Positions 39,827 through 44,754 of a DNA stretch of 64,000 bases are shown piece by piece. This DNA is from Tuwongella immobilis. GTDB lineage: Bacteria > Planctomycetota > Planctomycetia > Gemmatales > Gemmataceae. The stretch lies in contig NZ_LR593887.1 of the NCBI RefSeq assembly GCF_901538355.1, positions 2,084,920-2,148,919 on the forward strand, in the 5' to 3' direction. Position 1 is the stretch's first letter, and every line of letters starts with the position of its first letter. The notes below the pieces were generated by a model. That model ran no database searches and was not told the origin of the DNA. It was given only the letters and a program-made list of their open reading frames with translations. The position numbers and the translations under genes were made by a program.

Positions 39827-40123
39827 GGGCGTGGTCCCAGTTTGCGAATCATGCGGATATTCGACGGGATGTACGCAACATAGGTCACACTCGCGGGCAT
39901 CGATGCGAATTTTTCGGAAAAATTTCGCAAAATGCCGGATTTTCCCAGAAAAATGGATTCGCAGCGGATTCCGAATCACTCGGAAATCGATGGAATCCCG
40001 ATTCGGCGGGGGTGCTTGCAATGCGGATTTCGCCGGGTGATAATGCTCAGACCGTTCGACGGATCAACAGGCATTGTTGTGAAGATTCGATTCTCGAATC
40101 GTCGCCGCTCCGAGGGCCGAGTG

Positions 40124-42550
40124 ATGAGACAGTATCGCGGGTTTCGGTCGATCCGTTGCTCCATCCGCGGCGTGATCGTCGCAGGTTGGTTGCTGATGAC
40201 AGTGGCATCGGGACAGGCCGCCGAGACGTACCTAACCGGCGTCACCGTAACAGCTTCCAGCGAGCAGGTGAAGGGCTACACGGGGGCGGCAAATCTGGTC
40301 AATGATCGCGGATTCCGCGAAGTGCCGCCGGGGAGTGGCAATTGGCTGCTGACTAACAACGGCTCCGCCGATGGCGGCTGCATGTGGAATTCCGCGTATC
40401 TCCCCAGCGGGCCGCAGGAAACGCCGCTCTTGGACTTCGATTTGGGCCGGTCGCAGACGGTCGCGGCCATGCACGTCTGGAATCATAACTCCAATCTCTC
40501 GCGGAATTTCCGGAATGTGACGGTCTACTATTCCGCCGATGGGAAACGCTGGCAAACGCATCCGCAATCGTTGATCTTTCGGCAGGCGTCGGGCAAGCCC
40601 GATGATCCGGGGGAACGGTATCCATTTCAGCCGCCCATCACGGCGCGATACATCCGACTTTGGGCCGAAAGTACCTATCGCAGTGGTGGTCAGCCCGATG
40701 TGGCGGCGTTGGGGAAGGTGCGATTTCTGCCCGGGAAACCGAGCGAATCCGCGCCGGTCGCCGCTGCTGCCGGATTGTACCCGCCGGATGCCGGGGTGGT
40801 GAGCGTGAAGGATGCCCCGTATTTGGCGAAAGGTGATGGTGTGACGGATGATACGGCTGCGATTCGGCGAGCGATTGCCGACACGCAAGGGACGCGGAAA
40901 ATGCTCTATCTCCCGGCTGGAACGTATCTGGTCAGCGATTCGCTGGCGTGGCGGAAAGCCTTCGCCTATGGCCATCAGCAGTTCCGTGGGGAATCGATGG
41001 AAACGACCATCATTCGGCTCAAAGATCGATCGTTTTCCGATCCGAAATCGCCACAAGCGGTGATCGATAATGGCTTCAACGGCGAGTACGGAAAAGGATC
41101 ATCCGCAGACTGGTTTCACAATCATTTCACCGATTTCACGGTGGACACGGGCCGAAACAATCCAGGCGCCGTGGGCGTGCGATTTTATTCCAATAATCTG
41201 GGGCGATTGGGTCGGGTGCGGATTCGCTCCGGGGATGGTGACGGCGTCATCGGCTTGGATATGGGTCACACCGATATGAACGGCCCGCTGCTGGTGAAAG
41301 ACGTTGAAATCGACGGGTTTGATACCGGAATTCGCTGCGGCGGCACCGTGAATAGCCAAACCTTGGAGCGGATTCGGCTGAGCGGCCAGCGCGTCATCGG
41401 CCTGACCAATCATGGGCAATGTCTTTCGATTCGGGATCTCGAAAGTCGCAATGCGTGCCCCGTTTTGGAATCGAAATTTGGTGTGCTGGCGCTGGTTGAT
41501 TTTCGCTGCATTGGCGAATCCGGGGCAGAGTCGCTGACGGCGATTTCGACCAACGAAACGCTCTTTGCCCGGAATCTCCAGGCCAGCGGGTACGATCGTG
41601 TCCTGAAGCATGTGGCGAAGGAGACGACTTGGAATGAAAAACGCAATCAGATTGATGAATATGTTTCGGCCAAGCCAATGAAGCTGCACGGGGCCGAGCC
41701 GCGCTCGCTGAATCTGCCGGTGAAGGAGACGCCGACGCCGTTGCAGGATGCGCTTCGCAGTTGGGCCAACGTGCGGGCATTTCGGGCGATTTCCGATCTG
41801 GATGATTCGGCGGCGTTGCAGCGAGCGGCCGATTCGGGGGCGGGCACGCTCTATTTCCCGCCGGGAACGTATGTCATTTCCCAAAATGTGACGATTCCGG
41901 CGACGGTGCATCGAATGTGCGGCATGTTTTCGACCTTGCGAGCGGTGCAAGTCGATCGAAAAAATCCGCGGGAATTTCACATCGAGATTGCGGACGGCGA
42001 GCGGCCGATCTTCGTGGAGGATTTCCTGGGCGATGTCGAATGGCAGACTCGCGGCAAGCGAACTTGGGTGCTGCGAAACTGCGGCCTCTCCGGTGGCAGC
42101 GCGACCGCGACCGGCGAAATGTACCTTGAAAACGTCGTTGGCGATTGGATTTTCGGCAAGGGGCAGCGTGTTTGGGCGCGTCAATTCAACGCCGAGCGAG
42201 AAGGCGTTCACATGACGAACGCTGGCGGAAGTTTGTGGATTTTGGGCCTGAAAACCGAACGCGGCGGAGTTCTCATCGACACGCTCCAAGGCGGGCAAAC
42301 CGAGGTGATTGGCGGGCTTTCGTACACAACAACGAACGGAAAACTGGGGCCGATGTTCCGTGTGACCGATGGCCGACTTTCGGTGACGCTGGGGGAAGTG
42401 TGCTACACGGGCGATCCGTATCGCGTGTTGATTGAGTCGATTCGCAACGGCGAGATCTACCGAATTCCACGTGGCGAACCCGGATTGCGTCCTGGATTTC
42501 TGCACGGCAGTGCGTTGCCATTGGTCGTGGTTGGACCGGCCGAGCGATAG
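40124..42550 (+). CDS. Secreted discoidin + pectate-lyase-like (beta-helix) protein
   Basis: About 808 residues with a signal peptide (IRGVIVAGWLLMTVASGQAA). Residues about 35-190 are an F5/8-type C (discoidin) carbohydrate-binding-like domain (PLLDFDLGRSQTVAAMHVWNHN, ARYIRLWAES). Two pectate-lyase_3-type beta-helix modules follow: the first begins DAPYLAKGDGVTDDTAAIRRAI / YLPAGTYLVS and the second SDLDDSAALQRAADSGAGTLYFPPGTYVIS. The catalytic residues of polysaccharide lyases were not assigned, so enzyme activity is not certain. A role in polysaccharide binding or breakdown is inferred. GAGGG precedes the ATG at 40124. Divergent from the surface-protein gene across 297 bases. Confidence 0.88.
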   Translation: MRQYRGFRSIRCSIRGVIVAGWLLMTVASGQAAETYLTGVTVTASSEQVKGYTGAANLVNDRGFREVPPGSGNWLLTNNGSADGGCMWNSAYLPSGPQETPLLDFDLGRSQTVAAMHVWNHNSNLSRNFRNVTVYYSADGKRWQTHPQSLIFRQASGKPDDPGERYPFQPPITARYIRLWAESTYRSGGQPDVAALGKVRFLPGKPSESAPVAAAAGLYPPDAGVVSVKDAPYLAKGDGVTDDTAAIRRAIADTQGTRKMLYLPAGTYLVSDSLAWRKAFAYGHQQFRGESMETTIIRLKDRSFSDPKSPQAVIDNGFNGEYGKGSSADWFHNHFTDFTVDTGRNNPGAVGVRFYSNNLGRLGRVRIRSGDGDGVIGLDMGHTDMNGPLLVKDVEIDGFDTGIRCGGTVNSQTLERIRLSGQRVIGLTNHGQCLSIRDLESRNACPVLESKFGVLALVDFRCIGESGAESLTAISTNETLFARNLQASGYDRVLKHVAKETTWNEKRNQIDEYVSAKPMKLHGAEPRSLNLPVKETPTPLQDALRSWANVRAFRAISDLDDSAALQRAADSGAGTLYFPPGTYVISQNVTIPATVHRMCGMFSTLRAVQVDRKNPREFHIEIADGERPIFVEDFLGDVEWQTRGKRTWVLRNCGLSGGSATATGEMYLENVVGDWIFGKGQRVWARQFNAEREGVHMTNAGGSLWILGLKTERGGVLIDTLQGGQTEVIGGLSYTTTNGKLGPMFRVTDGRLSVTLGEVCYTGDPYRVLIESIRNGEIYRIPRGEPGLRPGFLHGSALPLVVVGPAER

Positions 42551-42561
42551 TCGCCCAGCCC

Positions 42562-42598
42562 ATCTGCCGATGACGGATGGTTGTCGTCATCGGCAGAT
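42562..42598. terminator. Bidirectional terminator between convergent genes
   Basis: Perfect 13-bp arms ATCTGCCGATGAC / GTCATCGGCAGAT (42562-42574 and 42586-42598) with an 11-base loop, followed by TTTGG. It lies between the pectate-lyase-like gene and the Met/Cys-rich gene. Confidence 0.8.
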
Positions 42599-42608
42599 TT
42601 GGCGATGC

Positions 42609-43076
42609 TCAGCACATGCAGCAGCAAACCGGCGTGCCACCGATCATCATGCAGCAGCAGCAGCCGGATTCCATGCAAGTCATCAGGCAATCGCCGCAGC
42701 TTTGAATCATGGCGCAGCAATTGTCATCGCCGGAAGTGCAGGTCAGGCAGCAGCCGTTGTTCATCATTTCCAGCTTGCACGCACCCATCGTCAGATTGCA
42801 GCAACAGACCATCATGCCGTTCATCATGCAGCACAGGCTGCACATGCCACCGGCCATCATGGTGCAGAGGTTTTGCATCATCGTGCAGGCCGTCGGATCA
42901 TCGCACATGGCCATGATTTTGATGCCGCCTTCGCACTTCACAATCTTCATGCTGCAGCGTGGCACCATGACCATGTTCGGCATCATCTGGGGCATCGTGG
43001 GCATGCCCGACGCCATCGATTGATTCGTCATGGTTCCGGGCATGGTCATGCGATCCATCATCATCGTCGTGGTCAT
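42609..43076 (-). CDS. Methionine- and cysteine-rich protein (putative metal-binding)
   Basis: 155 residues, of which 35 are Met and 28 are Cys (about 41% together). The first 40 residues are Met-rich with motifs such as MPTMPQMMPNM, resembling Mets-type copper sites; residues 41-155 have clustered Cys (CC, CCC, CCCC), often next to Met pairs. No signal peptide or known domain is visible, and no homologue was recognised. AGGAGA precedes the ATG at 43076; a longer frame begins at 43097. Codon use follows the window, so it looks like a real gene and not a chance frame. Sequestration of soft metals such as copper or zinc is a plausible role, but inferred. It ends at a strong terminator. Confidence 0.75.
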   Translation of the reverse strand: MTTTMMMDRMTMPGTMTNQSMASGMPTMPQMMPNMVMVPRCSMKIVKCEGGIKIMAMCDDPTACTMMQNLCTMMAGGMCSLCCMMNGMMVCCCNLTMGACKLEMMNNGCCLTCTSGDDNCCAMIQSCGDCLMTCMESGCCCCMMIGGTPVCCCMC

Positions 43077-43180
43077 GATTGTCGTCTCCTGTACCACGCG
43101 AGTGGGGCGAGGTCGCCGAACTCACCTGGCGAAAATAGCGAAGTTTTCCGCATTTTCCGTGCGGATTCGATTGCTTTTCC

Positions 43181-43201
43181 CGAATCATGCCGTATGATTC
43201 G
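43181..43201. repeat. Inverted repeat in divergent promoter region
   Basis: 8-bp arms CGAATCAT / ATGATTCG with a 5-base loop. It lies between the start of the Met/Cys-rich gene (43076, minus) and the small gene at 43274 (plus), and close to element copy A. Could be an operator site for either direction. Confidence 0.5.
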
Positions 43202-43208
43202 AGAAGAA

Positions 43209-43232
43209 TGATGATCAAGTTGACGAATTTAG
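43209..43232 (+). promoter_or_regulatory. Copy A of a repeated 24-nt element
   Basis: Reads GATGATCAAGTTGA, five bases, TTAGT, and ends 41 bases before the ATG of the 71-residue protein. Copies B (45027-45050, plus) and C (44755-44778, minus) have the same spacing. The element may be a promoter or a regulator binding site. Confidence 0.45.
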
Positions 43233-43273: not shown

Positions 43274-43489
43274 ATGTTGACCCATCGGTTCCGTGAACAT
43301 CTGCATGTGCTGCCGGGGAACATTTCGGTCGGAATGTCCATGCCCGCGTTTGTTCCGTGTCCGATGTTCGCCATGTTCTCGGCGGGGCAACAATCGACGA
43401 TCCAAGCGATCTATCAAATGGCCGCCGAACAGACTCGCCAGCAACTGCAACCGCGTCGCATTCGCCGGGCGGAATTCTCTCGAAACTGA
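43274..43489 (+). CDS. Small protein of unknown function (71 residues)
   Basis: Encodes a 71-residue protein starting MLTHRFREHLHVLPGN, with a Met/Pro-rich centre (MSMPAFVPCPMFAMF) and a helical, basic C-terminus (IQAIYQMAAEQTRQQLQPRR). The ATG is preceded by GAGGAA at about 7 bases, which fits a translated gene. Short planctomycete proteins with a similar IYQMA-EQ segment are recalled, but no family can be named with certainty. It lies divergent to the Met/Cys-rich gene and carries one copy of the repeated element upstream. Real-gene status is moderately supported. Confidence 0.5.
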   Translation: MLTHRFREHLHVLPGNISVGMSMPAFVPCPMFAMFSAGQQSTIQAIYQMAAEQTRQQLQPRRIRRAEFSRN

Positions 43490-43801: not shown

Positions 43802-44692
43802 TCAGGCGGTGGGGCGGCCGGATTGCATCCAAAAATGATATGCGGCAAACACCAAGATGACATGATGATGCCAGCCCTGCCAGGTGCGGCCCTCGAAGTG
43901 ATCCAACCCCAGTGATTGCTTGAACGATTCAAATGCGGCTAATCCCTGGATTACGGCATCGGCACGATGCGGGGCGGTGGGATAGGCGGCATCCTGGAGG
44001 ATTGAGTAGAAATCCGGCCCCGCCGCATACCCGGATTCGGCGACAATCGGCAAAATTGGCTCGGATTCGCGGCGTAATTCGTCGAGTAGCTCGAAGGCGA
44101 TTTCCGATTTGCTGGCCGTTCGTCGTTCGGAATCGGGGACTTTGGCGTCGAGTGTGTCTTCTTGTTCGCGCAGCCACGCGGCGGGAAGGTATAGCCGCGC
44201 TGCCAGCGGGAAGAATCCCAACGGCCCCACTTGTGAAACGAATACTCCTACCTGGCAATTGATCTTTCGTCCCACGGAACGAGCATATTGCCGCTGCACG
44301 CCCACGGAATGCTTCCCCCGCTTGGGAAAGATGCCATCGTGGACCAGCCAAACCGCATGTCGATCATTCCGCCATGCGCGAGAATGACTTCGCACCGCCG
44401 TTGCCAAGCGACGATGATTCCACGGACTATTGCTGACGAAATGCTGCAAAGCCTGCGGCAAATTCGATTCCACGATCATCACCTGACTGGCTGCCAGCGC
44501 GATCGATTCGACGTTCTTCCGCTCCGTTGGCTCGAGCAATCCGCGCAGATAGGCACGGAATCGCAAGAACTGATCCGCCCGATGAAACACGGTCCGAAAA
44601 TCCGCGACATACGACTCGAACTGCTCCAGTCGCTCGCGTTCCAACCGTCCCCGTTGGGGCAGTTCGGCGTCCGCAGATGCGTGAGGTGGCAT
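43802..44692 (-). CDS. IS701-family-like DDE transposase, internally shortened
   Basis: 296 residues, against roughly 400 or more expected. The N-terminal half aligns with the IS701/IS4-type core: WLVHDGIFPKRGKHSVGVQRQYA (first Asp kept), LYLPAAWL and ELLDELRRES. The second catalytic Asp position appears as VAESGYA (Glu). After DFYSILQDA, the sequence jumps to the C-terminal block LGLDHFEGRTWQGWHHHVILVFAAYHFW, with about 100 residues absent. The gene is a continuous frame, not frameshifted, so it is either a decaying insertion or a co-opted protein. ATG at 44692 is chosen. Terminal inverted repeats were not found. Confidence 0.8.
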   Translation of the reverse strand: MPPHASADAELPQRGRLERERLEQFESYVADFRTVFHRADQFLRFRAYLRGLLEPTERKNVESIALAASQVMIVESNLPQALQHFVSNSPWNHRRLATAVRSHSRAWRNDRHAVWLVHDGIFPKRGKHSVGVQRQYARSVGRKINCQVGVFVSQVGPLGFFPLAARLYLPAAWLREQEDTLDAKVPDSERRTASKSEIAFELLDELRRESEPILPIVAESGYAAGPDFYSILQDAAYPTAPHRADAVIQGLAAFESFKQSLGLDHFEGRTWQGWHHHVILVFAAYHFWMQSGRPTA

Positions 44693-44754
44693 GGCGATTC
44701 CCGAATTCCTGGTCGCGTCGATCGCACCCATTCGGCACGAGTCGCCGAATGATG

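Follow-up and report, generated by a model that had tools for sequence, protein, structure and literature searches.

Is a reading frame in which 41% of the residues are methionine or cysteine a real gene and, if so, what might its product do? The question was raised by a locus in a 64,000-nucleotide stretch of the Tuwongella immobilis genome (the window), in which the following features were considered:

42609–43076, minus strand: Met/Cys-rich protein gene, 155 aa, with a Cys-free Met-rich tail (residues 1–36) and a core (37–155)
43085–43090, minus strand: ribosome-binding site AGGAGA, 8 nt 5' of the ATG
42562–42598, no strand assigned: 14-bp perfect hairpin without U-tract, between the Met/Cys gene and the convergent gene 39932–42550
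43182–43200, no strand assigned: perfect palindrome GAATCAT-N5-ATGATTC (GAATCATGCCGTATGATTC), between the divergent genes
43274–43489, plus strand: divergent partner gene, 71 aa (MLTHRFREHL...AFVPCPM...IYQMAAEQTRQQL...FSRN), conserved in relatives
43802–44731, minus strand: solo IS701-type (DDE_5) transposase-like gene, found beside the Met/Cys–partner pair in many relatives

The product of 43076–42609 (minus strand) consists of 155 residues followed by a stop, and recounting gave 35 Met and 28 Cys, the 41% of the preliminary description. The protein has a mass of 16.6 kDa and 18% Cys, with no His and no aromatic residue. The Met-rich N-terminus and the Cys clusters elsewhere were also recovered: the first 36 residues are 36% Met with zero Cys, and the Cys motifs comprise ten CC, one CCCC, five CXC and five CXXC. 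The gene is single-copy in the T. immobilis genome (one contig, 6,690,754 bases).

The comparison of aligned sequences indicated that the Met/Cys frame is a real gene and not a chance reading frame, as had been claimed. The alignment contained 42 intact loci, mostly from Gemmataceae with a few more distant planctomycetes; part of the relatives were MAG contigs, and one sequence was included twice via different collections (L033 = L073). Over 304 pairs, pN/pS was 0.42 in the Met/Cys frame vs 1.07, 1.31, 1.05, 0.82, and 1.50 in the other five frames. Intact homologues occurred over many genera, and a usable start and ribosome site were present at nearly all loci. The competing explanation is that the locus is low-complexity ATG/TGC-rich DNA, or that the antisense frame is the true one. 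The antisense register corresponds to a long open plus-strand ORF (42432–43211) and was open at 31 of the 42 loci, as expected from Met/Cys codons. Because its pN/pS was 1.05, this ORF is a by-product of those codons. Conservation of the opposite strand in place of this frame had been named earlier as an outcome that would speak against the gene; when checked, it did not occur. Given these ratios, the starts and ribosome sites, and the duplicated fold predicted below, the explanation that there is no gene here has almost no chance of being right.

The flanking signals were in partial agreement with the preliminary description. The ribosome site AGGAGA lay at 8 nt from the ATG as described, and comparable sites were present in most homologues. 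The hairpin at 42562–42598 (−32.9 kcal/mol, z −6.2) does have a perfect 14-bp stem, but since it lacks a U-tract and is shared with the convergent gene, it appears to be a hairpin and not the canonical intrinsic terminator implied by the term strong terminator. A sigma-70-like promoter was sought and none was found, and the Rfam scan of the 64-kb window returned no match.

The Met/Cys protein is a member of an undescribed planctomycete family. Strong homologues were found in 28 of 95 Gemmataceae genomes, T. immobilis included (E 1e-59 to 1e-33, 47–74% identity), and several carriers possessed two or three copies. Furthermore, GTDB contigs contributed seven loci, two of them labelled Phycisphaerales MAGs, and other families of the phylum contributed four (392 genomes searched). 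A profile search added one weak match only. The window protein had no match in Pfam, NCBIfam, PHROG or PDB sequences, a Pfam scan of 40 family members gave nothing relevant, and viral and plasmid relatives were sought with none found. None of the papers searched dealt with such a protein. In its main text, the T. immobilis proteome paper mentions YTV Cys-rich cell-wall proteins and not the Met/Cys protein (PMC8567305). Routine tryptic proteomics would be largely blind to the core, because it has few tryptic sites (its peptides are 47 and 54 residues long). The family appears to be unannotated.

The alignment also separated the two sulphur amino acids. In the 42 loci, 14 Cys columns were kept in at least 90% of members, of which the window protein lacks two (A56 and G128). 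Core Cys ranged from 14 to 29% over the family, with about 24% in most members, while core Met ranged from 3 to 32%. The Met columns were mostly occupied by V/L/I/F/Y/W in Met-poor clades, and the core of Met-poor relatives contained as many as 12 aromatic residues. By this alignment, Cys, not Met, is the signature of the family; on this point the earlier interpretation did not hold as given. Since core Met varied so widely and was mostly replaced by hydrophobic residues, Met looks to be mostly a packing residue in the core, in addition to its place in the tail. Nearly all members lacked Cys in the tail, which was rich in Met in most of the Gemmataceae sequences. Swapping between Cys and Met was considered and rejected as a sign of soft-metal ligands, because in the two members furthest from the rest the change to Met was 62% for hydrophobic columns vs 39% for Cys columns. 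In addition, charged and polar residues were conserved (K44, E46, K47, D60, Q68, E103, D117, and Q125), which suggests that the protein does something more specific than chelating in bulk.

The structure was predicted by AlphaFold2 using 40 homologues. Residues 1–32 were predicted to be disordered, and residues 40–155 had a pLDDT of about 90, with the last few lower. The predicted order in the core was E E H E E – E E H E E (eight strands, two helices), forming two strand–strand–helix–strand–strand units at about 37–94 and 95–155. The two halves aligned with an hhalign score of 54.6 (E 1.3e-11), compared with a maximum of 19.3 in 60 column-shuffled controls. The paired positions of half 1 and half 2 included C41/C100, G51/G108, C56/C113, D60/D117, M66/M123, Q68/Q125, C71/C128, V90/V150, and C91/C151. 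We are confident that the core, as modelled, is a tandem duplication of this unit. Foldseek with the predicted fold against the PDB gave a best E of only 0.83, and the best VIA-align hit (Z 5.2), to unrelated large enzymes, was judged to be noise; searches with no credible match do not by themselves make the fold new. No signal-peptide-like stretch was found near the N-terminus, where the maximum 19-residue hydropathy was 0.47, and the sequence makes a cytosolic location most likely.

Several known systems share features with this protein. Like the bacterial metallothioneins SmtA and MymT, the Met/Cys protein is apparently cytosolic and Cys-rich, with CC, CXC, and CXXC motifs, and the window protein has no aromatics. 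It differs from them in size (155 aa and 16.6 kDa vs usually under 10 kDa), and no curated metallothionein model of Pfam or NCBIfam matched it. Metallothioneins undergo metal-driven folding, whereas the AlphaFold model predicts a stable alpha/beta core folded without metal. Moreover, the family has a Met-rich tail and conserved non-Cys residues, and some members possess the numerous core aromatics noted above. Copper storage proteins (Csp1 and Csp3) are four-helix bundles. They resemble the Met/Cys protein in bearing many Cys on a pre-folded scaffold (a predicted one here), and Csp3 in being cytosolic, but the predicted twofold strand–strand–helix–strand–strand core, the missing Pfam match, and the Cys-free Met-rich tail set the protein apart from them. 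Csps have been described as tetrameric and, in contrast to metallothioneins, as folded before they bind metal (PMC7558416). Periplasmic Mets-motif copper proteins are expected to have a signal peptide, which was not detected here. The preliminary description was right to set the protein apart from classic metallothioneins and periplasmic Mets-box proteins, and no known family was matched.

For the Met/Cys protein we propose, with an even chance, a role in the cytosol: its thiols would buffer soft metals or thiol-reactive stress, and in part of the family the cysteine supply would be regulated along with it. The folded thiol-dense core with about 28 Cys and the flexible Met-rich tail would sequester Cu(I), Ag(I), Hg(II), Zn(II) or thiol-reactive stressors, a buffer role like that of a metallothionein or a copper-storage protein on a different scaffold. 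If it does bind metal, the protein would extend the range of known scaffolds beyond those of metallothioneins and Csps. None of the conserved neighbours of the Met/Cys gene was recognised as a metal-handling gene; neighbours were named by eye unless scanned against Pfam/NCBIfam.

The divergent partner at 43274–43489 proved to be conserved, as had been supposed. A profile search placed it in exactly those 28 of the 95 Gemmataceae genomes that carry the Met/Cys gene, that is, in 28 of 28 Met/Cys-positive genomes and, as a weak match, in 1 of 67 others (Fisher 3e-23, ignoring shared ancestry). M1, F26, Y47, A50, and the C-terminal N were conserved in it, and a model from a single sequence without its first Met was poor, with one helix and a pLDDT of 62. 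This perfect co-occurrence, together with the conserved polar residues and the duplicated core, would also be consistent with a chaperone for a metal or Fe-S cofactor that serves one particular client, which might be the 71-aa partner, and is not a bulk buffer. We consider such a chaperone unlikely; no client enzyme was recognised among the conserved neighbours, and the Cys content is far above a chaperone's need. The partner itself belongs, as one branch, to a broader group of small proteins whose C-terminal Asn is conserved. In two genera, distant partner relatives lay directly 5' of an M16-protease-like gene (named by eye), at G000:C1:2263809-2264030 (L082) in the T. immobilis genome (G000) and at G032:C116 (L087).

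Some relatives of the Met/Cys gene have a gene module beside them. An Rrf2 regulator adjoined the gene in several loci, and mostly then a cysteine synthase. The regulator matched PF02082 and TIGR00738 (Rrf2 superfamily), scored 71.6 bits with the CymR equivalog model, far below its cut-off of 195, and had C-x8-C-x5-C in all five module sequences read. The CysK copy tested was above the cut-off of TIGR01139. At E<1e-60, this distinct Rrf2 subfamily had ten copies in nine of the 95 Gemmataceae genomes, all nine Met/Cys-positive, so that the Rrf2–CysK link concerns 9 of the 28 carriers and two thirds are without it; the genomes behind these counts are not phylogenetically independent. The copies by the Met/Cys gene were 233–1,545 bp away, except one at 5.3 kb in G052, which lacks the dedicated type of CysK, and in G044, G088, and G089 the regulator stood by a stand-alone partner copy. 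A search of twelve genomes gave five copies of the CysK subfamily (72–75% identical), in five genomes and each time in the Rrf2 module; all five genomes had a separate CysK or CysK-like gene elsewhere. The arrangement was also seen outside the Gemmataceae, in a genome from a different family of that class (L078), and a second genome of this other family (L079) had a different CysK about 1 kb upstream. The T. immobilis genome is without this Rrf2 subfamily. Two further observations concern other Rrf2 genes. The second Met/Cys copy of G052 (L060) had two Rrf2 genes at about −5.8 to −4.0 kb, with a sulphonate/taurine-type ABC transporter ATPase (named by eye) in the same stretch. In L053, L059, and L061, of one genus, a second, different Rrf2 type lay about −2.2 kb away, upstream of the transposase-like gene.

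The pairing of an Rrf2-family regulator with a cysteine synthase is shared with the CymR–CysK regulon of Bacillus and Staphylococcus, the two genes being adjacent here. The planctomycete Rrf2 differs in having C-x8-C-x5-C and in its linkage to a single Cys-rich protein with its small partner. CymR works as a complex with CysK, and mutation of cymR caused copper sensitivity and altered the expression of metal-homeostasis genes (PMC2869319). Among Rrf2 regulators with three Cys are redox and NO sensors (PMC9338935), which, along with the Met-rich tail, would fit a device for redox or reactive-sulphur chemistry, with the thiols in peroxide/NO/HOCl or persulfide handling and Met as an oxidisable sink. 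Neither a methionine sulfoxide reductase nor a thioredoxin or persulfide enzyme was recognised as a conserved neighbour, and such a device seems improbable. MrpX is a Met-rich periplasmic oxidant sink paired with a Met sulfoxide reductase. The Met/Cys protein shares the Met-rich sequence with sinks of this type, but it has no signal-peptide-like stretch and no adjoining Met sulfoxide reductase, and Cys is its conserved feature.

The upstream regions of the relatives contained a common palindrome. When aligned, they showed AATNNCGAC-N7-GTCGNNATT about 90–117 bp 5' of the Met/Cys gene and again before rrf2. The exact pattern occurred at eight sites in five of twelve genomes, all before the Met/Cys gene or rrf2-cysK. 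With one mismatch allowed, twelve further sites were found in the twelve genomes vs three for a reversed-pattern control. Of the twelve sites, four preceded other copies of the Met/Cys gene, one lay some 200 bp 5' of a partner gene, two separated the partner from rrf2 in G044, and five were at other places. The palindrome was not found in T. immobilis, G011, and G054, all without this Rrf2, nor in G052, where Rrf2 is 5.3 kb from the gene. We infer that Rrf2 binds the palindrome. The shared sites suggest that in several species the Met/Cys gene is switched together with its own cysteine synthase, which makes a thiol store or a metal buffer the probable role of the protein. At the window locus, GAATCAT-N5-ATGATTC (43182–43200) is unlike this palindrome and is a possible operator. 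Different palindromes were also observed in the same intergenic region of other lineages, e.g. GATCATGAACTTAGTCATGATC in L050/L051.

The genomic context, with its dedicated Rrf2–CysK pair and common palindrome, indicates cysteine metabolism in the first place. The Met/Cys protein might accordingly be a sulphur amino-acid store, which banks cysteine (and Met) at times of ample sulphur and is degraded when sulphur runs short, with Rrf2–CysK as cysteine sensor. The palindrome that a CymR-like Rrf2 and a dedicated cysteine synthase share with the Met/Cys gene, the very high S content, and the sulphonate-type transporter gene near one copy all fit such a store. A store needs no conserved sequence, though, and the fourteen Cys columns, the many conserved polar residues, and the defined predicted fold stand against it, as does a Met content not maintained over the family; its probability is therefore put low. 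Soft-metal or thiol buffering is the best single reading of the protein, which we would expect to hold in about one case of two. In one set of relatives, the Rrf2 repressor with C-x8-C-x5-C probably serves as the stress sensor, by way of an Fe-S cluster or the cysteine status. Its release would turn on the Met/Cys gene and the dedicated cysteine synthase together, and in places the divergent partner too, so that cysteine would be made as the Cys-rich protein is needed. The linkage of a Cys-rich protein to an Rrf2 regulator and a private cysteine synthase suggests a way in which bacteria may meet the cost in sulphur of such a protein. More tentatively, and with less than an even chance, the family may be a new class of intracellular soft-metal/thiol-stress buffer on an undescribed duplicated scaffold, having in some lineages a dedicated regulon (Rrf2 sensor, cysteine synthase, and 71-aa partner) that makes the cysteine it consumes.

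Two other neighbours were observed. Active IS701 transposases have DDT at the first catalytic Asp. The gene at 43802–44731 has HDG at this position, and because the Asp is apparently replaced, its product is probably no active transposase. This solo DDE_5 gene is likely domesticated. It was located at about −1650 in many Gemmataceae loci, and in some genomes it was found elsewhere too. In addition, a conserved protein of about 210 residues that appears to be secreted, with no Pfam match, was encoded downstream of mostly Met-poor copies at nine loci (L040, L042–L048, and L075), mostly at about +470 to +740 and once at +1.9 kb.
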